Shown here in pieces: positions 8,194 through 41,200 of a stretch of DNA of 60,000 nucleotides. Source of the stretch: Bolinopsis microptera (lineage: Eukaryota > Ctenophora > Tentaculata > Lobata > Bolinopsidae); NCBI RefSeq assembly GCF_026151205.1, contig NC_087081.1, forward strand, positions 5,887,246 to 5,947,245. Reading direction: 5' to 3'. The notes under the pieces were generated by a model. That model did no database searches. It was not told where the DNA came from and saw only the letters and a list, made by a program, of their open reading frames with translations. The position numbers and the translations under genes are program-made. Numbering within the stretch: the stretch's first letter is position 1; the number at the start of each line of letters is the position of its first letter.

Positions 8194-8885
8194 GGAAAGC
8201 ACACTTCTCAAATTGCGCGCATTGGAGTAGCTTCATTTATACTACATGAATCGAAATCAAATCGTTTGTAATGTATTCAAAATCAATATATGGCATATGC
8301 ACTTTACTTATTTAAATCACTTGGAATACTTTCGAAAAAGAATAACAAGCTCAAAAATGCTACTATCTTATTTTTTTTTTGTAAAAAGCACATCAACGTG
8401 AGTATCGTTTGTCGAGGTGCCTCAAAAGTGACTTTGAACGATTCCTCGTTCAATTTTGGTCGGCTGACGTTAGCTTAATGCAGAATCAAACAAGTTATAA
8501 ACATATTTAATACATACAAAATTAGATTTGCTTTCGGTTGAAGTTTGGTCAAATGAAAAATCTAATCAAATCATGTCATGTGAATTAATTGGCAGACAGT
8601 AATTTATTAATTTGATTTGACCCAACTCATTCATGGTATCAGATTGACAGCTTAGAGTATTTCAATTTTACCTATGAAGGACTTTGTAATTCCTCAATCT
8701 TGTACGTCAGTGAAGTCTAGTTTTAAAACCTGCTTCCTGTCAAGCTGTTTGTACAGTGTCATTCATTGGGGTTTCCCTCTGAAGTTCCTTGACCTTGTAC
8801 TCTCTGTCAAACCATGGAACTTCATTTATGACAGTTTCAAGCTACCTTCAAGCTCTAGTTATCATTAATTTATAATTTGTTATTA
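8194..8885. other. Intergenic, no gene seen
   Basis: AT-rich DNA with short open frames only. None has splice context or recognisable protein similarity. Confidence 0.5.
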
Positions 8886-9749
8886 CAGTGTGGGTCAAAA
8901 GTCAGTACCCATACGTTGGCCTTTATAGCTCAGTCATTTAGTGCCCAATCGAAATAATTCTTTCTGGTATAACTAAGTACCACCACTGGTTCGAGGAATT
9001 TGTCAACTCGCAAAATATTCGTGTTCATTTTTTTCATTCATTTTCGCAATTATTTTCTAATTTTACTGAATTGTGTTTGGCCATTCGATGTACGTTTGTC
9101 CTGAAAAAATGAGAGTTCTAGCTTCTCAGATGACCGAGATACGAAGCATAATGAGTTTATTCATAGCATGTGATCAGGTGATTGGCTTACCTAATCACGT
9201 GATAAGGTGACCCCGTTAACTACCCTGTTAAACATAATGGGAGTCGTTAAGGCTGCCCAATTAAGTTTTAATACTTTCAACACTACTATATAACAAATAA
9301 TTTTAGGTATGGCTACCGATGAGTAATCCGTTGGAGTAAAGTCTGCCGGTGTCCTGGGTGTGATGGATCTGAGTCAGATGGCAGGTTGTGGAGGTGGTAA
9401 TCGTTTCTTCCTATTGCCCTGGTAGTCTTGTACTGCCAGGGCTCCTGCGGTCTGGTACGAGGTTAGTTTTATTGTTAGAGATCTAGTGATGTTTGAAATT
9501 TATTAACTCCTTTTAGCTACTTCTCCTTTAGATAAGTATTGCATTCTTTTTTCTGCTATACAGTTCTTTACAACACCTCTGTTCATTATAATTCAAATTT
9601 TTTTCACTCTGAACTATAAATCTCTGGCCTATTAACTGTTTCAGATCCAGATTGCTAGGGTTTACAACGGTGCCACTGAAACATCCTGCTGTTGATCTCT
9701 TATCCGGATCACCCAGTCTCCTCCCGATCCTCCCACACTTCACAACAAG

Positions 9750-11261
9750 ATGCCAACACTGCCCGCCAACTTCCTCGCCTTACTGCAAAACTTATCTCTT
9801 GAAGTAAAGCAACACATGCATACCCTCCTTACTCAGAGTATCCTGGACAGTCTGAAAGAGAAAAAGCTTGCTTCTAAAATAGAACGTATAGATGAAAAGA
9901 AGAAGGAAAAGAAAACGAAGAAGGAAACTACTGTTCAAAATGTCTCGTATAGCCCACATACGCTCGTAGAGCACGTTCCAGTTCTCCCTGGAATGGATGA
10001 AAATCTATTCCAGAAAATCACAGAAGAATTAGATTCAATGAATCTTGAAGGCAAATCTAATAAAGTCCACACCCTATGGCTAAGCCCTTCATCAGAAGAC
10101 TACTGCTTTGGTAACATAGTCAACAAGCCACATCCCATCAACAACTTCCCTAGCATCTTTAAGTTGATGGGACTTATTAATGACCTCCCCTCCACCACCA
10201 ACAACATGGATGCTTGCCTTGTTACTAGGTACGACACTCAGCAAGCTAAGTTAAGCCTCCATAAAGACGATGAAGACCTAATAATATCACAGTCCAGCTC
10301 CATTTGCACTTACTCAATAGGGGCTCCGCGGTCACTTGAGTTTGTGCTCGATACAACCCAAGTAGAACAACGCACAACTAGGGCCTCTAGGTCAAGGCCA
10401 GCCCAAGAGTTGATTAACGCAGACTTCACCCTTCCTGCCACCAATGGCACACTGAACATCATGAAGCCTGGTGCACAGCAAGTCATGAGGCACAGGATTG
10501 CCCCAGGAGTTGCACCTTCTGACAATGAAATTTGTTGGAGGTATAGTCTCTCCTTCAGAAAGTTAACCACACCTTCCTCTTCCCCTTCATCTCCTATTCT
10601 TCCCTCTCCTACATCCGACAGTCCTAATAAGGTACCCCCAAAAGCTCCCATCACAGACTCTCAAAAACACCAGAAGTCTATCATCCTCATTGCTGGTGAC
10701 TCCTTTGCTGCTCGATTGGACGCTGATCGCCTCAGTAGAGGTAAAGAAACTGTCACCAACATAGCTAAGGGTGGGCTTAAGATCTCAGCTATACAGAAAT
10801 CTATTGAGGCCTTTCATACAAAGAACCCTCTTGTGCAGGTAAAGAAACTGTTCTTAAGCTTCGGTGCCAACGACATCCGGTACTGTACCCAGGGTGTCAA
10901 TCATCTCAAGACCCCTGTGAGTGACCTTATGAAGACAGCAAAAAAACTTTATCCAAATGCACGTGTTTTTGTACAAGCTATTCCACCAGTCCACCCCAAC
11001 GGACAAGATAAAATCCCTGGTAATGTTTGTGCTATGAATAATTTGATCTTTGATCGCTGCTCTAGGCATAAACTGTTTTACCTTGATGTTTTTTGGGCTT
11101 TCTTAGACCGCTATGGAAACAGAAACGAGAGATTATTTCCTAAATGTGACAATAGGGGCTTTTATGATATTCATCCCAGCCCCAAGGCTGGGATGCCAGT
11201 GTTGGCAAAGTTCTATCTCAGAATCATACACTCAAAGTGGTTTAATCCATTGGGATACTGA
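9750..11261 (+). CDS. LINE ORF1: AlkB-like 2OG-Fe(II) oxygenase plus SGNH esterase
   Basis: This 503-aa protein has three parts. Residues 1-65 are helical and Lys/Glu-rich (about 36-62), suitable for nucleic-acid contact or oligomerisation. Residues about 75-275 resemble the AlkB oxygenase fold: H171-x-D173 in LSLHKDDED, followed by ICTYSIG.PR; a distal H248 in MRHRI; and R264-x5-R270 in RYSLSFR. This is the iron triad plus the AlkB 2-oxoglutarate signature RxxxxxR. A Ser/Pro-rich linker (about 275-305) follows. Residues about 310-500 are an SGNH hydrolase: GDS with S318, GAND with N374, and D473-I-H475 near the end, one residue closer than the usual DxxH. Esterase ORF1s are known in CR1 elements; the oxygenase is the unusual part. 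AlkB enzymes remove alkyl groups from bases in DNA or RNA, so repair or demethylation of the element's own RNA or cDNA is a plausible but unproven role. Confidence 0.85.
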   Translation: MPTLPANFLALLQNLSLEVKQHMHTLLTQSILDSLKEKKLASKIERIDEKKKEKKTKKETTVQNVSYSPHTLVEHVPVLPGMDENLFQKITEELDSMNLEGKSNKVHTLWLSPSSEDYCFGNIVNKPHPINNFPSIFKLMGLINDLPSTTNNMDACLVTRYDTQQAKLSLHKDDEDLIISQSSSICTYSIGAPRSLEFVLDTTQVEQRTTRASRSRPAQELINADFTLPATNGTLNIMKPGAQQVMRHRIAPGVAPSDNEICWRYSLSFRKLTTPSSSPSSPILPSPTSDSPNKVPPKAPITDSQKHQKSIILIAGDSFAARLDADRLSRGKETVTNIAKGGLKISAIQKSIEAFHTKNPLVQVKKLFLSFGANDIRYCTQGVNHLKTPVSDLMKTAKKLYPNARVFVQAIPPVHPNGQDKIPGNVCAMNNLIFDRCSRHKLFYLDVFWAFLDRYGNRNERLFPKCDNRGFYDIHPSPKAGMPVLAKFYLRIIHSKWFNPLGY

Positions 11262-11455
11262 TGTGGTAATTCAATTCAATATTTAAATTTTTCATTGTCT
11301 GCATCAGTATCCTATTGGATCTGATCATTTGGATGTTATTTATATGTATTCAAACGAAGTGATAGCATAATGTATGTTACTTCATATTATAGCACAATAC
11401 CTAACAAAACACAACGGCGAGACACAATTCTGTTAATAATATACTTTAAAGTTCC

Positions 11456-14400
11456 ATGGGAATATCGGCTCAACAACACCGTGTTGCAACTGGTATGTTT
11501 TCTAGGTATGTTATCATCAGTAAAAGTAATAGAGGTAACGGGGAAAATTTGTTGTCCTGTCTTCTGTCTCGTCATATGTTATGTGCTCTATTGGGTATAT
11601 TTTATTTTTATGTTATTTTGTATATATTTTCTTTGACTATCGATGCTAATATACTCCCTGGTGCTCCCCTACAACCTAAAATACACTCTGTACCATGTTT
11701 GAGGTCATCCATAAATCTTTACTTTATGGTAATATTTTGTACCATTTTTCTCAGACACTTTAAACTTGTGTATAGGGGGGAGGGGGGCATTGGGACAGCC
11801 TTAGCTGCAATTTCTGTAAAATTGCTATCTACCACAAAAACCGAACTGTCACCTACCATGTCACCGAAACAGACTGTTAAGTTACTTTTCGGTATAACCA
11901 GCAGCTGGCTTGGGGTCATGTCTAGGTGTGGTCTGGTTTTTCTATCTCTCCTTAATATTTCCCTGATAGTAATTTGTAATTGTTCCTTACTGAACCCTGG
12001 ACCAAATTTATCCGTTGTTTACAATAATGTCCATGGTTTCCTAAATACACGCGATTTAGCATCAGGAACACCACCACTAAATATGACCAAGATACATGAA
12101 TTCCATGGTTATATCTACAAACATAAGCCTCACATCATTATTCTAAACGAGACATGGCTGAAAAATTCCATTCTCAGTAATGAGGTGCTCCCTGACAAAT
12201 ACAAAGTATTTAGGCTTGACCGATCCTTAAGATCGCATCCAGTGGATGCAACCCAGCCCAAGAAATTCAGAAAAAACGGTGGTGGTGTTCTGATTGCCCA
12301 TAGAACAGACATTGATATCTCGAGTCTAAAGTTCTCTAAAGTTAGTGTTCAAGCTGAATTATTATCCATCATAATTAAGACTCAGTGTGGAAGAAACTTT
12401 TGTATATCAACATTTTATAGAGTAGGAACGCTTGGCTTAGATAATTTTGAATCTTTCAAGAAACATTTTGTTACTTTAGCATCTGCCAGAAAATTGCAAA
12501 GGCACATTCTGGTAGGTGACTTTAATTTGGCTTCGATTTCCTGGCCAGATGGTCAGTCATCTTGCCAGCTACATTCTAGCTTTGTAAATTTTCTCACTGA
12601 TGACCTCGGACATACACAACTTATTAGCTCCCCTACTCACAAGTCAGGCAACACCTTAGATCTTGTGTTCACTAACATTCAAAACCTTATTAAGAATGTT
12701 AAAGTTTTAGATCAAAACGAAATGTGTATGTCCGACCACTTTTGTATCACATTTGACATTGATATTAAGACCAAGTATATTAAGCAGCCTAAAAGAAAGA
12801 TCTTTAATTATAGTAAAGGTAATTTTAGGGGCCTGAATTCTGAGTTATTTAGCATCGATTGGGATAGTATATTTGAGTGTAATGATCCTTATCTTGCCTG
12901 GAGTCGATTCAGAGGAGTTCTCGGTGCAGCCTGTGACCGATGGATCCCTAAAAAGACCATTAAGTCTCAGTTCCAGCCCCCATGGTATGACTCCGAATGT
13001 GATCGTCTCCTACGAAATAAGGAGAAATGGAGAATAAGGCATAAGGGGAGCAACTCTGAGTCTCATAAACAAAAGTTTCGTGCATTTCGCACAAAATTTA
13101 AAAATTTGATGGACGAAAGAATGAGACTCAGTGTTGAGGATGACTCCGATGATGCTCTTATCTCCAAGAAATTCTGGACCTACGTTAAATCTAAATCAAA
13201 GTCAACCAGGATCCCTGAAACTGTCAAATATCATAATCGCTTTCGAAACAATCCATCTGATCAAGCTGCCCTTTTTAACGAATATTTTTATGAGCAGTTT
13301 TCTCAAGAGAGCGATTATGGCATTGACATAGATTTTCGTGATGATTGTTTTTCAAGTCTTGTGTTTAGTAGAGAAGATGTTCTGTTGATTCTTAAAAAGT
13401 TAAATCCTAACAAGGCCCCTGGCCCTGATGGGATTCATGGGAGAGTCCTCAAAAACTGTGCCCAAAGCCTTGCATACCCACTTAGTGTTTTATTTAACCT
13501 GTCTTTCTCGAGCGGATGCATACCCCCTGATTGGAAGCTGGCACTTGTAGTACCAGTGCACAAAAAGGGCGATAAGTCTTCGGTTGAGAACTACAGGCCT
13601 ATCTCGTTAACATCTCTTGTAATGAAAGTCTTTGAAAGGTGCATAAAGACTGCATTATACGCTGCATGTTCTGATCTGTTGGATGACCGACAACACGGTT
13701 TTGTTAATGAACGTTCATGCACAACCCAAATGATACCTTTCACGGACAATCTTGCACTTGCATTGAATAACAGGTCCAGGACTGATATAATATATTTTGA
13801 TTTTGCGAAAGCTTTTGATAGCGTTTCGCATGACCTCATTTTAAGTAAATTAAAGAATATTTTTAATGTCGATGGACTAATGCTTAAATTTATTAAGTCC
13901 TATCTTGAGGGGCGACAACAACAAGTAGTGATAGGAGGCCAAACGTCTTCTTCTCTACCAGTTCGGTCTGGTGTCCCTCAAGGTTCTATACTTGGCCCTT
14001 TATTGTTTGTAATATTTATAAATGACATGTTCTCCTGTGTCTCTGAAGGCACCAATATCGCCCTTTATGCAGATGACACTAAAATTTGGAGGGAGATCCT
14101 TGGTTACCCTGACCATCACATAATCCAAAATGACATCAACAGATTATATGATTGGTCAGTGAGAAATCGAATGAAGTTCCACCCACAAAAGTGCAAAGCC
14201 CTCTCTGTGTCCCTGCAAAGAAACGTGCTGGATAACTTGCCATTCAATACCTTCTTTTATAAACTTTCTGGAAGTGATATTGACTTTGTGCCCTCTCAGT
14301 CAGATTTAGGAGTCGCAATAAACTCCAGGTTTAATTGGGGTGCACAATGTAAAGCGCTTGTTTCCAAAGCTACCTCTAGACTTGGACTACTTAAGAGAAC

Positions 14401-14962
14401 ATGTCATTTCACTACTGATAAAAGGCAGAAAAGATCGTTCTATTTAGCGTTAATTAGGTCTATATTTGAACATTGTTCTGTCATATGGTCCCCTCAATCT
14501 GCAACTCATCTTCAACAGTTTGTTGCTATCCAAAAGAGGGCTATTAAATGGATCAATGGTGAACCTTACTCCAGTTATAATGACGATAAACTTGCTACAG
14601 AGCAAAAGAAACTAAATATTCTCCCTGTTAAACAGAAGTTTATTTATAACGATCTTATGACCTTCTATAAAATAGTGAATAGCATAATTCCAGTTTCGCT
14701 CCCTACATATATAGTCCTATGCCGTCCAGAGGGCACCCGATACACTAGGCACAATGCTCAAATAATTGATATGTCGGATACTTCAACTTACATGAGTACC
14801 ACTGTGCCCTGCTCGGATGCCTTCCGAAATAGCTTTTTTCATAGATCTATGCTGAAATGGAATAGTCTACCAGTATGTATCCGGCAGTCAGAGCGGATTT
14901 CTACTTTTAAGGCCAAACTGATCAAGTACCTCTGGGCTGCCGATACAGTCTGGCCAGATTAG
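11456..14962 (+). CDS. LINE ORF2: AP-type endonuclease and reverse transcriptase
   Basis: The frame has 1168 codons from ATG at 11456. Residues about 178-425 form an endonuclease/exonuclease/phosphatase domain with the motifs ILNETWL, VGDFN and SDHF, which nicks target DNA. Residues about 620-900 form the reverse transcriptase, with NKAPGPDGIHG, NYRPISL, FDFAKAFDSV, SGVPQGSILGPLLF and the catalytic YADDT at about 870. The C-terminal part to 1168 carries the usual CR1/jockey-type thumb and tail. Catalytic residues are intact. The first ~175 residues are unusual, with three hydrophobic stretches and then an NPGP motif just before the endonuclease. The true start may be a later ATG. The gap after ORF1 is 194 bp, with no frame overlap. 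Confidence 0.92.
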   Translation: MGISAQQHRVATGMFSRYVIISKSNRGNGENLLSCLLSRHMLCALLGIFYFYVILYIFSLTIDANILPGAPLQPKIHSVPCLRSSINLYFMVIFCTIFLRHFKLVYRGEGGIGTALAAISVKLLSTTKTELSPTMSPKQTVKLLFGITSSWLGVMSRCGLVFLSLLNISLIVICNCSLLNPGPNLSVVYNNVHGFLNTRDLASGTPPLNMTKIHEFHGYIYKHKPHIIILNETWLKNSILSNEVLPDKYKVFRLDRSLRSHPVDATQPKKFRKNGGGVLIAHRTDIDISSLKFSKVSVQAELLSIIIKTQCGRNFCISTFYRVGTLGLDNFESFKKHFVTLASARKLQRHILVGDFNLASISWPDGQSSCQLHSSFVNFLTDDLGHTQLISSPTHKSGNTLDLVFTNIQNLIKNVKVLDQNEMCMSDHFCITFDIDIKTKYIKQPKRKIFNYSKGNFRGLNSELFSIDWDSIFECNDPYLAWSRFRGVLGAACDRWIPKKTIKSQFQPPWYDSECDRLLRNKEKWRIRHKGSNSESHKQKFRAFRTKFKNLMDERMRLSVEDDSDDALISKKFWTYVKSKSKSTRIPETVKYHNRFRNNPSDQAALFNEYFYEQFSQESDYGIDIDFRDDCFSSLVFSREDVLLILKKLNPNKAPGPDGIHGRVLKNCAQSLAYPLSVLFNLSFSSGCIPPDWKLALVVPVHKKGDKSSVENYRPISLTSLVMKVFERCIKTALYAACSDLLDDRQHGFVNERSCTTQMIPFTDNLALALNNRSRTDIIYFDFAKAFDSVSHDLILSKLKNIFNVDGLMLKFIKSYLEGRQQQVVIGGQTSSSLPVRSGVPQGSILGPLLFVIFINDMFSCVSEGTNIALYADDTKIWREILGYPDHHIIQNDINRLYDWSVRNRMKFHPQKCKALSVSLQRNVLDNLPFNTFFYKLSGSDIDFVPSQSDLGVAINSRFNWGAQCKALVSKATSRLGLLKRTCHFTTDKRQKRSFYLALIRSIFEHCSVIWSPQSATHLQQFVAIQKRAIKWINGEPYSSYNDDKLATEQKKLNILPVKQKFIYNDLMTFYKIVNSIIPVSLPTYIVLCRPEGTRYTRHNAQIIDMSDTSTYMSTTVPCSDAFRNSFFHRSMLKWNSLPVCIRQSERISTFKAKLIKYLWAADTVWPD

Positions 14963-15406
14963 CTCATCAGTCTTATGAGTCTCAGAAATTTGTTTTTGTT
15001 GGTTACAATTCTGTCCGTCCAATTTCCTATCTGCTTGTCCTTTTCTTTTTTCTTTATCAGTTGTGACGGAATTGTAATGAACAAAATCCTTATAATTATT
15101 TATGATATGTTTGATTTCTTGTTAATGTTTGTCATTCAAATTTGGTAGACGGCCCCAACGTTAATGTGGCTCTTGCTATGTGTTGGTTCAGCCGAATTAA
15201 TTATTATATAGTCAAGTTTATTTTTCTCGTTAGTTGTCATCCGGCCAAACATTAAGCAACTTATATTGCAGTACCATTTACCATTTAGTATATCAAAATA
15301 TGTCATTGTAATTTTGCATGGCTGAAATGTAACGCTTGATTTATATATATATAATGATTAATTGAATTTTCAAATAAAAAAAAGGTGTCGGTGTCACGGT
15401 GTCACA
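14963..15406 (+). other. LINE 3' UTR and 3'-terminal short repeats
   Basis: No open frame. An A-run at 15376-15383 is followed by GGTGTCGGTGTCACGGTGTC, about three imperfect copies of an 8-bp unit, after which mariner-like sequence resumes. Confidence 0.6.
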
Positions 15407-15879
15407 TAATCACCCAATCAATTTTGCTAACAAGATACACAATTCGCTTGATAACTTCGTCATTTCTAATCCTTTTAACATCATTTTTATCAGATCAGAT
15501 GCAAAATGTAATAATCTACCATCTCAGAAAAAATTAGGCGTCCAACATGTTCTGAGAGAACAATATAGGTGTTTTAATATTGAATGGGCGTGGTCTAAAA
15601 TATGCGAATTTTCAAATTTTTGCAACAGAATCCTCAAACAAGTACGTACAGTATGCCATCTGCAAAGTAACAACTCTCAAATATAAAAGACGGCCCGGAG
15701 GTATAAGACCCAACGTATGGGTTCTGACTTTTGGCCCACCCTGCATTTTTAGTCAATAGCTACATCTAAATGTGTTGTTAGAGGGTGAGAGGGGGCTAAA
15801 ATATGCAAAACCTTGCTGACGCAATATTTGATTGTACTTTGATCTATTCGATCTATAAAGTACCAATTTCCTATCTAGA

Positions 15880-16329
15880 ATGGTAAACTTAAGAGCTGCT
15901 GGTATCATTATCTACCGCACTGCGAAAAATGCATCGCCAGAAATACTCCTCCTCCAAACTGCATACAATAAAGAGTGGGCACCACCGAAAGGTCATGTTG
16001 ATCCCGGGGAAAGTGACCTAGACACAGCCTATCGAGAGACAGAAGAGGAGGCTGGGATTAAAAAATGTGACATAACTTTGAATGACGATTTCAAAGAGGA
16101 ACTACATTATGTTATAACAAAATCTATCTATGTTGAAGATGTAAATAAGAAGAAGATATCTGTATATTTCTTGGGGAGGGTGAATTACACTCAGAATGTT
16201 GTTCTTTCTGATGAACATCTAAGCTACAAATGGGTAACATTTCAGGATGCCATTGCTACTGCTAAGTTTGAAAATAATGTTTCACTTTATTCGTCAGCTC
16301 AAAATTACCTTCAGACAAATATGAGTTGA
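15880..16329 (+). CDS. NUDT2: Bis(5'-nucleosyl)-tetraphosphatase (Ap4A hydrolase), Nudix family
   Basis: This 149-aa protein spans the usual length of animal NUDT2 (about 147 aa). The Nudix box GX5EX7REUXEEXGU is complete: GHVDPGESD then DTAYRETEEEAGI, residues about 45-70. The preceding W-A-P-P-K-G motif and the start VNLRAAGIIIYR are typical of the asymmetric Ap4A hydrolases, which split diadenosine tetraphosphate to ATP and AMP in the cytosol and nucleus. The coding region has no intron. An acceptor-like CTATCTAG ends one base before the ATG, so a 5' non-coding exon or trans-splicing is possible. It is the first of three same-strand genes with uninterrupted frames, and it lies about 135 bp downstream of the mariner-like element's end. 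Confidence 0.92.
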   Translation: MVNLRAAGIIIYRTAKNASPEILLLQTAYNKEWAPPKGHVDPGESDLDTAYRETEEEAGIKKCDITLNDDFKEELHYVITKSIYVEDVNKKKISVYFLGRVNYTQNVVLSDEHLSYKWVTFQDAIATAKFENNVSLYSSAQNYLQTNMS

Positions 16330-17043: not shown

Positions 17044-17760
17044 ATGCTCAAAGTTGACAAAAGTCATTGTAAACTCGGTGCAAGTGGTGGAAACATCTTA
17101 CATGTAGAAACTGAGGACAGGAGGAATTGTTTGAAATTAAGCCTACGAAGAAACTACATTGCAAATGCTGAGAACATGCTTCAAGACTTTTCATCACTCA
17201 CTTGGCTATGTTTATCTGCAAATGCCTTAACAAGTATTCCAAGAGCACTGGAAGATCTACTCAATTTGAAGCACCTGTTTATCAGTAACAACAAGATTCA
17301 ACTTATTGAAAATTTAGATAATTGCATAAACTTAGAAACCATTGATGTACGTCACAACCGATTGCAAGAACTATCTGGAGTTGCTCATCTTACAAAACTA
17401 ACCAGCCTTTCTGTTAGTGGGAACATCATCAGTAAAATTGGTCCACATAACATTTCTTCTGATAAGCTTGTTTTCCTGGGCCTATATGGTAATAAAATTT
17501 CAGATTTTGAGGAAATAAAATCAGTTGTGAAAAACATGAACAATTTATCCAAACTATTTATTGGTTCTAATCCTTTCTGTGATAATTTGCCACTGAAGCC
17601 ATCATTTAATGTGACTGTCTGTTCAAAGGATCACAGTCAAACCAATGGTACTAAACGGATGAAATGTATTGGTGATTCTTTGAATCTTTCCGAAATGTTA
17701 GCACTTTTAAAATGTTTGTGTCCATCGTTGGTTAACATAGATAACAATATTATAGATTGA
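17044..17760 (+). CDS. Leucine-rich-repeat protein, 238 aa
   Basis: Residues about 29-165 hold five to six LRRs of the 22-23-residue type (for example LTWLCLSANALTSIP, LKHLFISNNKIQLIE, LETIDVRHNRLQELS and LVFLGLYGNKISDFE), followed by a Cys-containing tail. There is no signal peptide or membrane segment, so it is probably an intracellular adaptor-type LRR protein. The specific orthologue is not recognised. The ATG follows ATTTTCAGG directly, so the first coding exon begins at or just after a splice acceptor and an upstream exon or trans-spliced leader is likely. The remaining coding region is uninterrupted. The stop lies only 240 bp before the ATG of the next gene. Confidence 0.85.
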   Translation: MLKVDKSHCKLGASGGNILHVETEDRRNCLKLSLRRNYIANAENMLQDFSSLTWLCLSANALTSIPRALEDLLNLKHLFISNNKIQLIENLDNCINLETIDVRHNRLQELSGVAHLTKLTSLSVSGNIISKIGPHNISSDKLVFLGLYGNKISDFEEIKSVVKNMNNLSKLFIGSNPFCDNLPLKPSFNVTVCSKDHSQTNGTKRMKCIGDSLNLSEMLALLKCLCPSLVNIDNNIID

Positions 17761-18000
17761 TAAATGATAACATTAAATTATAAGTTTTCTTCTATAAGTT
17801 TCAATTTTCAATGACAACTACTCACAATTTAATCTTGTTTTATTTTTTATGATCGTTATATTGTACTTTGTACATAACTAATTTACTTGCACCTAGAACA
17901 GAACAGTGTTTATATATTTCAAGTCAGTGATTTATTGATATATTGTGAAATCATCTATTAAATTAAAAGCCTATTAGGTTGGTCAGTGGATAGCTGTATC

Positions 18001-20748
18001 ATGTCACTTGGTTCTGGTCAAAACCCCCAGAATAGCAGAAAAAGACCCCCAGAAGGAAGCAATGAGCACCACAGGAAGCACCAACGCAACAACCAGGGCC
18101 CAAAAAGTGTCAGTGATGCAATCTCACTTCTTAAATCTTGTGTCAATTCTATTGTAACATCACCAATTAATCTTAATGATGAGTTTTCCGGTGATGAGTC
18201 TTCCGGTGATGAGTTTTCCGGTGAAACGAGACCATTGATCTTTGCTGACAGTGGTTCAGTTGAGTCATTTCCTAATCAGCCTTTAATTAAAATTACTGGA
18301 TTTGGAATTTTACCTCTTCCTGTTACTGGAGTGCTTTTTCAAGAATTGGCTAAACATTTCGACTGTGACCAAAACTCCAATTCAATTTTTATTGATGTCT
18401 CAAAACTGTCTTTTGGAGATGCTTCTTTTGAGAGCAAGGTAGATGTTTTACAGAAAAAACACATCTTTCGAAAAGTTGGATGTTTCTCTTTCCTTCGACA
18501 AAGTTGTCTATCTACTGGACTGACAATTCGAGGACCTCATACTGATACAAGAGTTCACAAACCACTTTACCTCAATAACTATTCATGCATTAATGGTGAT
18601 ATGTACCAATTTGGAACTCTGTGCATCCAGCTTCCATCCGTCTATTCAGGAGGGAAAATGAAAGTAGAACATGAAGTTGAGAAGTGTTCATTATCATTTG
18701 ATCCATCTCTTAACCAACAAACCTGCTTTTATTATGCAGGTATTGGAGCAGCTACAGTTTCAGAAGCTTCTATTACAACAGGATATAAAGTTACCCTAGA
18801 TTATTCTCTCTATGCTGCAGGTGGAATAGATAAACGACTCCATCCAGCTATCAAACAGAAAATATCCATTGGAAGTTACTTGAAGTATCTGTGTGAGAAA
18901 GACAAAGTTGTGTTCTGGCCCTTGAATAGTATTTATAGGGGTAAGGTAGATGACATATTGAAGTTTAATGACTCTGGTGACAAGCATCTCGTAAATTGCA
19001 TCCTTGAAGGAATTTCGTATTCAGACTTAGGTCAGGTGGAGGTATATCTTACCAGCCTGAGGAAGACGGTCATTGAAAAAGGCAAATGCTTAGAAAACAA
19101 TCGTGTGCTGCTTGCTGAGATGATGGGTCAGGCCAAACCAGATATATCTAAAGAAAACTGCTTTTTGGTGGACGGAAACCGCTCTACTGAAATATCATAC
19201 AAGATATGTGACTTTAAACCATTGAATCAGAACACATCTAGTGCAAAATCACTTACTATTGATGGACTGAGCATAGAATATGTTGAACAATTTGCTGCTA
19301 TTAAGGATTGGGGACCAGTGGTGGATGTTGGGTGCTCTGGGCATTCTCCGAAAAACCCAGATAGAGAAATAGCTCTATATGAGTCTTATCAGCATAAGGA
19401 TGTGATTGTGGTCCTGTCAATAACAAGATGTTTTTCATATAAGCTAGAACAAAGCGTCGAGTGTGCAATGGAATATTTAGAGGGTGCTGACGTGTCCCTC
19501 TTAAGTGAAGAGCAACTCCGTGAGATGGAGAAATCAGTGATTGTGAAACTGCGAAACAAACTATCCCGGGAGTCTTGTGGGATAAAATATAGGATGATTA
19601 GTTTGTGTATAAGAAACAAGAGCTGGCTCAGCTGTCTTGACATGATACGAATCTGTTCTCGGAAAAATAATGCTGGTATTCCACTAAAAGAGGATATGAA
19701 GTTTGCCTACAAGATAATTGCAAAGGTTGTTGACACATTTGGATGGGAGAAGGCGGAGAAACCGGTGATGTTGTTGTTTAAGAAGTGTCGGGCTTATCAG
19801 TGCAAAGAGGTTATAAAGTGTGTCAACCTTATTCCTCAAGCAGACAAGGGGAAAGTATTCGACTTTCTTATCGAGAAAATAACAGTGAACAGTGACCATT
19901 TCAACAACTTCTACTGGTTTTTTCACAATATATTCAGTTTTGGCATCTCTTCCACACAAAATGTCCCTGAATCTGTCTGGAAAAACCTTACAGGCTGTAC
20001 TGATTTTCTTTACCAAAAAAGGCTAATCAATTGCCTTCAAAGATATGGACACAAGGTAGATGATAAGATTCTTAGCATTTGCTATGACCAAGTAGACGAT
20101 TATTATGATATCTGGGAACTTTCTTTTGACAACAATGGTTCTATTTCGGAAGAAGAATGTGATGACAGGGGTATGCCATTTGACAGTGATGAACATGACC
20201 CATGTTTTGTGAATAATGTCCTTAAATATTGCATAAAAAAAGGTAAAACAGAAATGCTATCCAGGTTTGCTGATCTTGCCAAGAAGTATTGGGAGTGCGA
20301 AGAGAACTCCTGCCACCTAGTTGCTTTTGTGATAGAGATGTTTACCAACGAATACAACTTGAATCAACTTGATAAGTCCCTTGCAGGTCTTGTTCAGCAG
20401 AGAATGAACTTTCTGAAAGTTTCAACTGAAAAAGGTATGCCCCCCTTTTCATGGTGCCAGCCTGTAGTCAACCAGCCTAAAGATGACTCTTTCTTACATA
20501 TGGTAGATTTCTTACATAGCCCCGAGGAAGTTTACAATTTCCACTTGGACTCACCTGCACAGTTTTTGAAGATATTTGATGAAAAGCATTGTGAAGGACA
20601 TTACTCACTCAAGATAACAGGAACAGAAGTTCAAGTTACAAAGAAGAAGATAGTTTGGGAGAGGGATGTTGAGCTGTATAAGAACAAACTTGCGGAGTAT
20701 GAAAAGATTGTGCAGTTTGTTGAAACCAGTGGTATTGTCTTCCCTTGA
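18001..20748 (+). CDS. Large protein with degenerate 2OG-Fe(II) oxygenase-like domain, 915 aa
   Basis: One uninterrupted frame from ATG at 18001; the open frame extends upstream only through a GTG codon and a likely acceptor (TTGGTCAG). Residues 1-95 are low complexity, with an acidic SGDE repeat. Residues about 95-275 match the oxygenase family that reads FGTL.IQLPS.Y.GG....H and then GY.VTL.Y.LY. H180-T-D182 could be the first two iron ligands. At the place where relatives have CEHEV, this protein reads GAATVSEA, so the distal His is missing, and the usual Arg is K263. Activity is therefore doubtful. Residues 300-915 look helical and are not recognised. A single exon of 2.7 kb beside intron-rich genes suggests retroposition or transfer, or simply intron loss. 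Confidence 0.8.
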   Translation: MSLGSGQNPQNSRKRPPEGSNEHHRKHQRNNQGPKSVSDAISLLKSCVNSIVTSPINLNDEFSGDESSGDEFSGETRPLIFADSGSVESFPNQPLIKITGFGILPLPVTGVLFQELAKHFDCDQNSNSIFIDVSKLSFGDASFESKVDVLQKKHIFRKVGCFSFLRQSCLSTGLTIRGPHTDTRVHKPLYLNNYSCINGDMYQFGTLCIQLPSVYSGGKMKVEHEVEKCSLSFDPSLNQQTCFYYAGIGAATVSEASITTGYKVTLDYSLYAAGGIDKRLHPAIKQKISIGSYLKYLCEKDKVVFWPLNSIYRGKVDDILKFNDSGDKHLVNCILEGISYSDLGQVEVYLTSLRKTVIEKGKCLENNRVLLAEMMGQAKPDISKENCFLVDGNRSTEISYKICDFKPLNQNTSSAKSLTIDGLSIEYVEQFAAIKDWGPVVDVGCSGHSPKNPDREIALYESYQHKDVIVVLSITRCFSYKLEQSVECAMEYLEGADVSLLSEEQLREMEKSVIVKLRNKLSRESCGIKYRMISLCIRNKSWLSCLDMIRICSRKNNAGIPLKEDMKFAYKIIAKVVDTFGWEKAEKPVMLLFKKCRAYQCKEVIKCVNLIPQADKGKVFDFLIEKITVNSDHFNNFYWFFHNIFSFGISSTQNVPESVWKNLTGCTDFLYQKRLINCLQRYGHKVDDKILSICYDQVDDYYDIWELSFDNNGSISEEECDDRGMPFDSDEHDPCFVNNVLKYCIKKGKTEMLSRFADLAKKYWECEENSCHLVAFVIEMFTNEYNLNQLDKSLAGLVQQRMNFLKVSTEKGMPPFSWCQPVVNQPKDDSFLHMVDFLHSPEEVYNFHLDSPAQFLKIFDEKHCEGHYSLKITGTEVQVTKKKIVWERDVELYKNKLAEYEKIVQFVETSGIVFP

Positions 20749-30600: not shown

Positions 30601-33600
30601 GGGCAGGAATGAGGCGAGTTGTTAAAAGGAGGAAGATTATATTAATAAGACTTGAAACCTCGTATGTTGCACGATGCGTGGAATCCAGCTCGCCATGCCA
30701 TGCTCGAATAAAAAAGCAATGAAAGAAACGGCGAATTAAATCCCGTTATGGTCCTGGCTTTATAAAACGACTGAATCTCTCCCCACTCCCCAGCTTACAA
30801 TAGAATTAGATTAATCATTGTCCATTAAGTTAAGATAACGCTAAACTGAATATGAGCGAGAGCTAAGGATGAGAAAATAGCGAGGGAGCTAAAAAATCGG
30901 TAACAGTGTCCGAACTACGGATGTACATTTATGGCGAGAACCTTAACCCCTAGACCATTAGCCTCCTCTCGGCCAACCAATCCTCAACTTTCGTATCACG
31001 TGGCCCGTTATTTTGGTCACGTGATCAGTTCATTCACGCTCAACTTACCTTTATCGCAACAATGTTCTCCAAATCGCATTGCGAGGGCTGGAAAATTGAT
31101 TAATGCTATTACGACGTGCAGGCGATGAAGATAACTGGATTAATGAATTGTTAGGATTGAGTTTTCACAGCTTTAGGGTTAGAGGAGAAGGGATTCTGGA
31201 TCGATTCTTCTGGTCATCAGGGTGAAGGGAAGGTTTCAAGTAGTGAAATTAACGCGCGGTGATGAGATTTGGGGAATTGTTTTAAATCATATGGTGTGCG
31301 TGTTCACTTATTTTAGGAAAATATTTTATCTATTAGAGCCTTCATGAAGTTGGCGAAGCAGGTAATTAGGAAATGCCCCCCTGTCAAGCCTTGAAGTTGG
31401 TAGTCTTAGAGGAATTCTCAAGAATTTTCGAGCTTTTTTGTGCAATTGTCTATTTCTTAGAGTGTGGTGGATTTTGTATTCATATCCCTCACAGAGTTCC
31501 TACCGAAATGAACAGCACAAATACAAGAACCCCTAAAAGTTTATTAATTCTCCTCTCAGTCTTAGAAGCGCACTAAATTTAAATGCCAAATCAGTTTCTT
31601 AAAATACGGTAAAACAGCAAAATATACCTCGTGTGTCAGCTTTGCGTGGGTTTAATTTGCACTAGAAGGGAATCAATAGAAGGCTCGAACTGGGTCTTCC
31701 CTTAAGTAGGACCAACCCTTATCAGTGCAGGTTTGTATCTCCCGAGATCAAGGCTTGTTCATATCATGCCAACGACCATAGAGTTGCCCTGAACATTTGG
31801 CTGCATAAACCATTGCTACGTACGTGCTGAACCTCAAAACTTTCAAAAATGCATAAGTTAATTATCAATTATTGTTCTGTTAATTAATTAATTAAGGGGT
31901 GATAAGATTAATCTGACCAGGACTTCCAATTGGATTAGTCCTGCAAGACTTAAAACCTACTAGCAGTTTAACAACTTCCACTCTGTCATTCGTCGGAAAG
32001 GGGCGGACCAGCGGACATATACTGCAACTGGGACCTTGTCTCCACGATCAGGAGCAACAAGTATTTCCCAGGAAAATTGGTATGGTCAAACTTATTGCTG
32101 CTTATCAACATTGGGGTTCTAATTTAATTTATATAATTCTCTGACTCAGCGACATCGCATGTTCACGTAGATTTCACACTCTTGCCTAACTTCGTAAATT
32201 AGGCCAAAGGGAAATTATGTTTAGCCATAACATAAGTGAATAAAATAATTTCTGTCCTTTTCTCACGAAGTGTTTATCATGAGCTAAATTGGGAGGAGAT
32301 AAAAGTTTAAAGTTAGCAAAAATTAGGAATTGCCTCGGCTGCAGAAGCGTGCCTTCCCATTGTTAAATCTGAGTTATCTTAAATATGGCTTCCACAACTT
32401 ACAAATATGGCCTTAATTTATGAACAATGTGAGATATTTTTAAATAACGCCTATAAATAGGCTAATTCCAAATGTCTACGAATTTTTTATAATTTACCCA
32501 GACTTAAATCTCTCTTCTATCTAAAAAGAACATGTATGAACATTACGGAATATTCATGGGCTTTATAGAATCTTGCTATCTTGCTTGCTTCGTTCAGATG
32601 TCTACAAATGTGTTAAACGAAAAGTTGTCCCAGAGGTAAAACATCCATTCTGGTACATCTTGTCATTTTGATGTTTCTTGGTCAGGAGAATCCGGACAAA
32701 TCAGAAAATGTCTTACAGGGCAGTCCAAGGCTGCACTCAGCAGATTTGTGGACTGACTTTGCACAGACAGGGACACGATATAAGCCCTATATTTAGGATA
32801 TTTACTGGATTTATCCGAGTTACTATGGCATGGAGGAAATACAGGGCGTTCTTATGGGTCTTTTTTATCGTGACTGATCTACAATTAAGGGGAAGATGAT
32901 CACGTGCAATCAATAGCATAAATAAACGATCAATTTGTTAGAGATTATCAGTTGTCTTTAAATGCTAAAATACTGGGGTGGATATACAATTTTGAGTTGT
33001 TTTGAATGAACATTGAAGAGCGGTAAATGATTGGCAGTAAAACATATTCGTTGCTTATCCCCCCTTAAATGAGTTATATTAATGACATATTATCTGGTTA
33101 TCAAATTAACTGACGTGGGACATCCTTAATAACAAAATGTTAAAATAACTCTTTAAAAAATTCAACAACAACAACAAAAAAAACCTGAAAAACTCGAGCT
33201 GATTTCACAATGACCAGGCAGAATTGCTAATTGGAAGCAGAAATAGCGATGAGGAGGCTCAGTATATTCGTATGAGGTATCAGTATGAGCATCAGTCTTT
33301 GCTGACGTGACTAAAGATAGAAAAATCTATCACGAGGATCGCCCAGCAATATTGGCAGTATCCATATTTCTTAAAATAGAAAGGAAGACGGTCTATTTTA
33401 AGAAATATAGATACTGCAGAAATACTGCTAATCTTGAAATGCCGAATGACTGAGCTATTAAGGCAAACGTATGCCCACTGACTTTTGGCTCACCCTGTAT
33501 GTAGTATCAAACTAATACGTTTGCGTCCCTGAAGGTCTTTGGTAATTTAGTAACTATGGAGAAGAACGTTTCGTCTTTCCCCCAAGCTTGTAACCTGTAA

Positions 33601-38293: not shown

Positions 38294-41200
38294 TTAATAA
38301 CTATCATCGCCACCCTCTTCACACGCAGTACTCAGTTCTTCGTATTCCTGAAAATGAGTAAAACTATCAAGACTAAACGTCCTTTTTGAATAAAACTTTG
38401 TGAAACTGAATGTGCAGTGATCTCGATCACGTAACGTACTGATGCTTACTGAAAATTTGAGGTATTAAACTTAAAGCTAATTGGACGTATCAGAGCTAGT
38501 ATATCCAATTGAAGGGTAAGACTACGACTGGATCTGGAAGAGTAATTTTAGGGCCTATAACAAAATTATAATTTCTGTCGGTATTTTGTCGAGCTGAACA
38601 TCCTGCATTCTTCGAACATCCTCGATTTGCTTGAATCTCAAAAATGGCGAGCTGGAGGCCAATCTTACAGGTTCTAATCAGTATTACTATTGAGATTATA
38701 TAATCAACTCACATTAATAAGTTCCGTAATGCTTTCTTCGGCAACTGTGAACTCTGACTCTTCCATACCCTCCCCTACATACCTGACAATAAAACACGTT
38801 AGTATGCTTAATTATTGGTCCCTGCTGTAAGGCATGGTCTAGACTCTACTAGACTTTACTAGAAACTAAATTCTTTCGATATCCTTTGAATTTGATAAAT
38901 CTGCCTAGAGCACAGGGGTGCCATAGTGCAAAGAAACTGCTGCTGATTGCTGCTAACTGCGCGCCATTTTCAGCAGCTAGCAGCAGTTTCTTTGCACTAT
39001 GGGCCGGCATGGCACCCCTGTACGTGAGAATATGAAAGCAACTACCTTATCTGACCTTATTTGGACGGACATTAATTGAACGCTGCATGGAGGTCTTTAC
39101 ATTCATTTTAATGTCCGTTCAAATAAAGTCCGTTCATTTAAGGTCCGTCCAATTTAAAGTCTGTTGATTTTTTTTCCACTTCGAACTTTTTGTCCAGAAT
39201 ATGACAACTATGAGAACTTTATTGTGCCGTATGTTAATGACGGAAATGTTCTCCTTGGTCTGCCGAAGGCACAAAAAACTTTACTAGTATATGATGTTTT
39301 CAAGGGTCAAAAAGTCAACGAAATTATGGCACTCAACAACATAGTTCATGAGCTAGTCCCCGCCAACATGACAAACTTGTTCCACTTAGTTCCAACATAG
39401 TAGTAGTAGTAGTACTACTAGTAGTAGTATAAGTTATACTACTACTAGTAGTAGTAGTACTAGTACTACTACTACTACATACTATGTTGGAACTAAGTCC
39501 GATCTACGCCAGATAACCCCCTGGCCTAGCTACTTCATATATCCCTGTCCCGCAGCAGGGTTCGCAGTTCCTCTTTAGAGTTTGTCCCAATTTCCTTCGG
39601 CTTCAGTAACATAGACAAGTTGAAGTAGTTTTGTCTTGGTCGGCCTTGCTGTGCTCTATATAACCGTGCGTACTTGCGTAGGTTTCCATAAGACTAAATC
39701 ACTGACAAGTAGCTCAGGATGTCTGATGCAGTGTCCCGCCATTTTCAATCTCCTGCTTCGTAACTTGTTCGACAGCCTTGGTAGGCTACCATACAAAGTT
39801 ATATTGCTGACCTTGTCCTTCCATGAGATACCCAGCACCATACGCAACATCTTTGTGTATGTCCCGTCGAAACTTTTCACTTGAGCCTTTGTCAGTGTCC
39901 AGGTTTCTGATCCGTAGAGCAGTACTGATTCACTAGCCGCTATGAACAATCTAATCTTGAGGCTCTTTGAGAGATTGGATTTCCAGATATCCTTCAGTCT
40001 ATGTAGGGCACCCCACGCTTTTCCCTTTCTAACCCTTATCTCCCTATCTCTGCTCTCAATCCAGGAGCCTAAGTAAATGAAATCATTCACATTTTCTATG
40101 GCTTCCCCGTATCGACTTTGTAGGTCGACAGGTCGATCCTCCATATTCAATGTCATAACCTTGGTCTTGCCTTCGTTTACGTGAAGCCCCACGCTCGCTG
40201 CCGCCGATTTTACTCGGAGCAGGAACTCGTTAGCCTTGTCCATGTCCTCAGCTAGATATAAGTGCTATATCATCTCATGCAAAGTCCACATCGGTGATGA
40301 TCTTGTTCCAGCCTCTATATATTACGATAAATCGTGTTGCCAAGGACATTGTCCGACGTTGTTATAACTTATATTTCATATTACTCAGCTAGGGGAGGTA
40401 ATGAAACAGTGCTAGGAAAGCTCCACGTGATGTTAAGGTTAACCTAAGTCCTAAAGTTGTTTAAGATGATACCACTTCACGCCGAATGGCTTGTAAAACT
40501 AAAAGTTAACACTGAATTGCAGGACCGGGGTAGTTTGATAAAAAATAAGGTTTCCATAAAGCTAGAAATCACTGATGCTTTAAGCATGGACTATTTCATG
40601 CACGAAAACCCATTTGATGAAGATGATATGTGATATTAGACACTGATCATGTAATTTTATTTTAGGAGTTTAAGGTTTTATTATATTTTAGACGGTGCTC
40701 CAAAGTGAAACAGCTCTATGCCAGCTGTTTTACATTTTCGGTCCAGCCCTCCTATATTAAGAAGAGATTAGGCCCGGAAGCACAAATTTTCCGAGTTATT
40801 ATTATGATCATACTCTAGCTAATAAGTAGAAATATACCACGTACTAGGCGTATAACCTATAAGAAGTAGAACTAGAACATAAACTAGATGATCAATATGG
40901 GCCAAATATATATGATTATGAATATAACAACTATAATTTGGTGTCTTCTATACTGACCAATGGACGAACGCTCGTCTATTGTACATGCTCTTGAACTTGT
41001 CATGTAGTCGTTCCCACGCTTCCTTTACTGCTGTTGAATTGCTTAGCATAGTGCACGATCTAGTCACCTGAACGTTTTAACTTTTTCAAGTTTCAATACA
41101 GCTGTAAATAGTAATAATATACGTACAGTCCTATCAAGATCAACAAACATTCATTAATTTTCAACCCAACTGAATTTTTATCAACATATTCGGCTTCTAT

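Follow-up and report, generated by a model that had tools for sequence, protein, structure and literature searches.

Evidence for an AlkB-Type Oxygenase Fused to an SGNH Esterase in ORF1 of a Ctenophore LINE

Introduction

Some plant RNA viruses carry AlkB in their replicase. Among retroelements, an AlkB domain is encoded by orchid Ty3/Gypsy elements, for which a demethylase role is reported (PMC9289625), and SGNH esterases occur in the ORF1 proteins of ZfL2-1 and of CR1/L2 elements with a type IV ORF1, upstream of an endonuclease-reverse transcriptase (RT) (PMC3905857, PMC4120745). Here we describe an element from the ctenophore Bolinopsis microptera that appears to unite the two domains in one protein. 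It is a long interspersed nuclear element (LINE) found in a stretch of 60,000 nucleotides (RefSeq assembly GCF_026151205.1, contig NC_087081.1, positions 5,887,246 to 5,947,245 of the forward strand; hereafter the window, in which all coordinates are given). Several lines of evidence strongly support that its first open reading frame (ORF), ORF1, encodes an AlkB-type oxygenase followed by an SGNH esterase, next to an ORF for an endonuclease-RT.

The AlkB domain of the window element shares with human ALKBH3 and ALKBH2 and with E. coli AlkB (family PF13532) the fold and the HxD...H...RxxxxxR pattern, and after HxD it has an acidic residue as ALKBH3 does; unlike those enzymes, it is joined to an esterase and belongs to a retrotransposon. 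The AlkB-carrying plant viruses are likewise RNA-replicating, but their domain is part of a virus polyprotein and they do not retrotranspose. The likeness to CR1/L2 elements lies in the SGNH domain of ORF1. According to passages of the two papers, the esterase is accompanied by a coiled coil in ZfL2-1 and by a zinc finger or leucine zipper in some CR1 elements; the words "AlkB" and "oxygenase" are absent from the main texts of both (PMC3905857, PMC4120745). The window ORF1 has a long predicted N-terminal helix (residues 17–55). As far as the passages concerned describe them, the orchid elements are long terminal repeat (LTR) elements of plants with AlkB in a separate extra ORF, whereas the window element is a non-LTR element with AlkB inside ORF1 and fused to an esterase; the word "esterase" is absent from the main text of that source (PMC9289625). 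Esterase capture by retroelements is also described, in passages of a further paper, for the GDSL esterase ORFs of bdelloid rotifer LTR and Penelope-like elements, which belong to other retroelement classes than a LINE, and "AlkB" and "oxygenase" do not occur in its main text (PMC5408684). Among the titles, abstract openings and passages of the open-access papers that our literature searches listed, we found no description of AlkB in a non-LTR element. What may be new here is the addition of a predicted base-demethylase domain to an esterase-type LINE ORF1, the esterase-type ORF1 itself being already known.

Results

Architecture of ORF1

ORF1 is an uninterrupted frame of 503 residues at 9750..11261 on the forward strand, as are the features that follow. 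Its homologues and its structure model (mean predicted local distance difference test score 86.9) outline an N-terminal helix, an AlkB-type oxygenase, a disordered linker and an SGNH esterase. The long helix in the secondary structure of the model (residues 17–55, 9798..9914) is a possible oligomerization helix. The 2-oxoglutarate (2OG)-Fe(II) oxygenase domain covers residues 67–274 (9948..10571). It includes H171-K-D173-D-E175 (10260..10274), with the predicted iron ligands H171 and D173 and an acidic residue as in ALKBH3 (HSDDE); H248 (10491..10493), the predicted third iron ligand, which aligns with the histidine of HRV in ALKBH3; and R264-x5-R270 (10539..10559), the predicted 2OG-binding arginine motif. 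The SGNH/GDSL esterase domain covers residues 308–497 (10671..11240), with the predicted nucleophile S318 of GDS at 10701..10703, N374 of the GAND block at 10869..10871, and D473-I-H475, predicted to supply the catalytic acid and base, at 11166..11174. A preliminary description of the locus had given this ORF and named H171, D173, H248, R264, R270 and the GDS, GAND and DIH motifs; the ORF, its coordinates and every residue named proved exact.

Domain Identity by Profile and Fold

Searched by itself, the window ORF1 matches the Pfam SGNH esterase family PF13472 (expectation value, E, 1e-9) and does not match the AlkB family of Pfam; the AlkB match in NCBIfam is weak (E 0.002), and in a PDB sequence search neither domain reaches significance (best E 0.096). 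Because this gave no firm AlkB match, the AlkB reading was checked through relatives and structure. A search among public contigs, in which the best 8000 candidates by number of common words were scored, returned 68 proteins homologous to ORF1, with identities from 85% to 33%. Alignment A1 comprises 57 rows, that is, the window ORF1 and 56 of the 68 homologues, the other 12 being mostly short or fragmentary. At E <= 0.01, PF13532 (2OG-FeII_Oxy_2) is matched by 38 of the 57 members (best E 7.3e-15) and unmatched in 19, the window ORF1 included, and all 57 match PF13472. A match to the Pfam family OSK, the Oskar SGNH-like domain, was also seen in eight of the 57 (best E 5e-6).

When the A1 profile is compared with the PDB, the top match is human ALKBH3 (8jnr, E 2.6e-15), and the HKDDE of the window ORF1 aligns with the HSDDE of that protein. 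Further matches are a bacterial SGNH hydrolase (6njc, 4.9e-10), ALKBH2 (4mg2, 5.1e-10), the ZfL2-1 ORF1 esterase (4c1b, E 2.6e-8) and, weakly, platelet-activating factor acetylhydrolases and E. coli AlkB (0.029). A profile from 12 AlkB domains only strengthens the matches to both ALKBH3 (E 3.4e-16) and E. coli AlkB (E 0.0016). Single relatives vary, P0042 reaching ALKBH3 at 1.7e-10 and P0068 at no better than E 0.0021. By profile, the best PDB AlkB matches are thus ALKBH3 and then ALKBH2. FTO, ALKBH5 and ALKBH1 appear neither among the profile matches nor among the 50 structure matches listed, which is no proof against them.

In structure comparison, the ORF1 model shows the double-stranded beta-helix of the AlkB fold, and its structural alignments with ALKBH2 and ALKBH3 are 17–23% identical. 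The preliminary description had made its reading depend on such a beta-helix with H171, D173 and H248 clustered, and the predicted structure agrees as regards the fold. The structure matches include the polyproteins of grapevine leafroll-associated virus 3 and little cherry virus 2 (matched ranges not displayed).

Conservation of the Catalytic Residues

Residue counts were taken in an alignment of all 68 homologues, using at each column the rows that have a residue there. Among the iron ligands, D173 (66/66) and H248 (68/68) are invariant and H171 is replaced once, by tyrosine (65/66). The position of E175 holds 64 glutamates and two aspartates among 66, R264 is kept in 66 of 68 (one C, one Q), and R270 in all 68. 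In the esterase, S318 (66/66), G342 (65/65), N374 (65/65) and H475 (60/60) do not vary; D473 is found in 57 of 61 (three N, one G). The mean weighted conservation of the five AlkB residues in A1 is 0.994, a value matched by none of 100,000 random five-column sets from the domain, and that of the five SGNH residues is 0.962, matched by six of 100,000. Over their whole lengths the AlkB and esterase domains are about equally conserved (0.613 and 0.620), with 0.401 for the N-terminal stretch and 0.318 for the linker. This pattern looks like that of a domain under catalytic constraint rather than of a decaying passenger. A chance match to the motifs was rejected, as the profile, fold and conservation evidence, including the random-column test, speaks against it. 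Loss of H171, D173 and H248 from all other copies had been named as grounds for rejecting the reading; in related proteins the three residues are nearly always kept. The proposed fusion of AlkB and SGNH domains in a LINE ORF1 is therefore backed by profile, fold and conservation alike.

In two related proteins the SGNH-like half after the AlkB domain is divergent. In P0068 an AlkB domain (PF13532, E 1.9e-11) is followed by an SGNH-like second half that stays below the Pfam cut-off (PF13472, E 0.0071), and in the shorter P0192 the AlkB domain precedes what by eye is the beginning of a GDS block of similar kind. Different types of esterase may therefore accompany the AlkB domain, which suggests domain shuffling between ORF1 types. 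A search with the AlkB-only profile returned eight proteins. Seven had not been found before, mostly lying on short contigs, and among all eight there was no clear cellular donor; P0195 (E 4.5e-7) is the sole match that resembles another kind of AlkB. Searches of viral contigs and of genome contigs gave no confirmed relative.

ORF2 and the Nature of the Element

As the preliminary description had noted, an intact endonuclease-RT ORF lies downstream. ORF2 starts 194 bases after ORF1 and runs unbroken for 1168 residues (11456..14962, forward strand), comprising a hydrophobic N-terminus, an NPGP motif, an APE-type endonuclease and an RT. Pfam detects RVT_1 (PF00078, E 5.4e-30) and two endonuclease families (PF14529, E 1e-10; PF03372, E 2.2e-7), which are its only matches at E <= 1. 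Ten residues that we take to be the catalytic ones of endonuclease and RT are intact, and none of them varies across the 20 aligned proteins. The A2 profile, built from 19 of the 120 ORF2 homologues listed out of 467 found, matches R2 and LINE-1 ORF2p. By its sequence the element is an APE-type non-LTR retrotransposon, with endonuclease and RT in one ORF and the active-site residues intact. An LTR-type element was rejected, as ORF2 has no integrase or RNase H match at E <= 1.

The closest ORF2 cluster, 96% identical to that of the window, represents 147 sequences, which suggests that the element is multi-copy. That ORF1 and ORF2 homologues are also paired elsewhere is supported indirectly: among 57 of the 68 ORF1 homologues and the 120 ORF2 homologues listed, five ORF1/ORF2 pairs have equally long longest contigs of more than 4800 bases, whereas 600 offset controls gave 0.39 such pairs on average and never more than 3. 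Pairwise identities of ORF1 and ORF2 across the window and these pairs correlate weakly (r 0.46). The possibility that ORF1 is a host gene merely lying beside a LINE was discarded, since its homologues are diverse and, indirectly, since the five pairs exist. A putative 3' end at 15373..15403 (forward strand), read by eye in the single copy, consists of AATAAA, an A-run and GGTGTC-like repeats. No target-site duplication could be fixed, the longest common word being 11 bases of low complexity, and Rfam gave three matches in 8500-16000, each below its gathering score.

The ORF2 N-terminal extension (11456..11992, forward strand) contains three hydrophobic stretches resembling membrane segments in Kyte-Doolittle windows and ends at the NPGP motif (11993..12004, forward strand; CNCSLLNPGP). 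The order is a conserved MGIS-type start, the hydrophobic segments, and NPGP directly ahead of the endonuclease. A survey of the 98 relatives of at least 1100 residues among the 120 listed found NPGP within the first 400 residues in 97, and before it at least one hydrophobic 19-residue segment in 97/97 and at least two in 88/97. After NPGP, the 20 aligned proteins have one such segment each, except one with two. The canonical 2A consensus is D-x-E-x-NPGP, and a canonical 2A/StopGo peptide was rejected, as DxExNPGP occurs in 0/98 and the window motif is a 2A-like ending without the usual D-x-E. The ORF2 N-terminus may serve to anchor the protein in membranes or may hold a non-canonical site of the 2A kind; either would fit an element with an ORF1 protein that may handle lipids.

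Discussion

ALKBH3 and ALKBH2 remove 1-methyladenosine (m1A) and 3-methylcytidine (m3C), and reverse transcriptases halt at bases that bear a methyl group on the base-pairing face. An eraser within the ORF1 protein that coats the RNA would thus aid target-primed reverse transcription. On balance, we favor the hypothesis that the AlkB domain joined to the SGNH esterase in ORF1 is ALKBH2/ALKBH3-like and competent for catalysis, and that it removes template-blocking methyl groups. In this scenario the ORF1 protein would coat the RNA of the element, its AlkB domain, with Fe(II) and 2OG, would strip base-pairing-face methyls such as m1A and m3C from that RNA or from single-stranded complementary DNA (cDNA), the RT would meet a readable template, and the esterase would place the particle on membranes. 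Given that the catalytic residues are kept and that, by sequence, ALKBH3 and ALKBH2 are the closest proteins of solved structure, it is reasonable to infer that the domain is the element's own demethylase, and the dozens of related proteins with the same domain pair suggest cleaning or protection of the element's message as a possible function. By analogy, membrane targeting is the likely role of the esterase, as passages of Schneider et al. propose for the zebrafish ZfL2-1 ORF1 protein (PMC3905857). We more hesitantly envisage a widespread LINE lineage with a base demethylase in its RNA-packaging protein, coupled to membranes through the ORF1 esterase and a membrane-spanning ORF2 N-terminus.

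Alternatively, the domain could erase N6-methyladenosine (m6A) and so hide the element RNA from m6A-based surveillance by the host, the role put forward for AlkB in orchid Ty3/Gypsy elements. These provide a direct precedent, with RNA binding and demethylase activity reported in vitro (PMC9289625), but the only AlkB proteins that profile searches with the window protein family match at E up to 1 are ALKBH3, ALKBH2 and E. coli AlkB, and the acidic residue after HxD agrees with ALKBH3. We regard an m6A eraser as unlikely. The preliminary description had suggested m1A and m6A as substrates; similarity of the ALKBH2/3 type and the HxDxE motif favor m1A, together with m3C.

Another role would be repair of 3-methylcytosine or 1-methyladenine in insertion-site DNA or cDNA, useful where cytosine methyltransferases cause damage of this type. 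Fold and profile are indeed ALKBH2-like, but the top profile match is ALKBH3, not ALKBH2, and ALKBH3 prefers single strands. Passages of two invertebrate genome papers count ALKB2 with the DNA-methylation toolkit (PMC8857917, PMC11294593), which favors repair, but an ORF1 protein would be expected to meet RNA first. We consider this role improbable. It is very doubtful that the domain persists as a nucleic-acid-binding module of the ribonucleoprotein with catalysis incidental or lost, for although LINE ORF1 proteins need RNA binding and RNA recognition motif and zinc-knuckle families are absent from the matches of the window ORF1 and from those listed for the A1 members, few columns of the domain are as conserved as those of the predicted iron and 2OG residues, which binding alone would not demand.

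If the AlkB domain is active, base methylation or alkylation would exert enough selection on some LINEs for a dedicated eraser to persist through deep divergence, A1 members being as little as 32% identical to the window ORF1. Non-LTR elements would then join LTR elements and RNA viruses as AlkB carriers, and the limits that modified bases set to reverse transcription could be tested in a natural system. Should the domain indeed demethylate the element's own nucleic acids, the element would be repairing the very template from which it is copied.

Surroundings of the Element

The LINE is flanked by an inverted repeat of 46 bp (8886-8931 and 15698-15743, 84.8%), whose arms start CAGTGTGGG and CAGGGTGGG, and a further copy of this end lies at 33445-33499. 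From the sequence, the LINE seems to be nested inside a terminal-inverted-repeat DNA transposon. Directly downstream of the nested insertion is an uninterrupted NUDIX-domain ORF of 149 residues (15880-16329; PF00293, E 3.7e-20), followed by an ORF of 238 residues for a leucine-rich-repeat protein (17044-17760; PF12799, E 2.7e-15). An uninterrupted ORF of 920 residues at 17986-20748 has no Pfam match at E 0.1, and by eye one stretch of it looks like a putative 2OG oxygenase. On the reverse strand, an ORF at 39656-40243 weakly matches DUF6451 (E 0.00022, below the cut-off) and by eye resembles the C-terminal part of another putative LINE RT.
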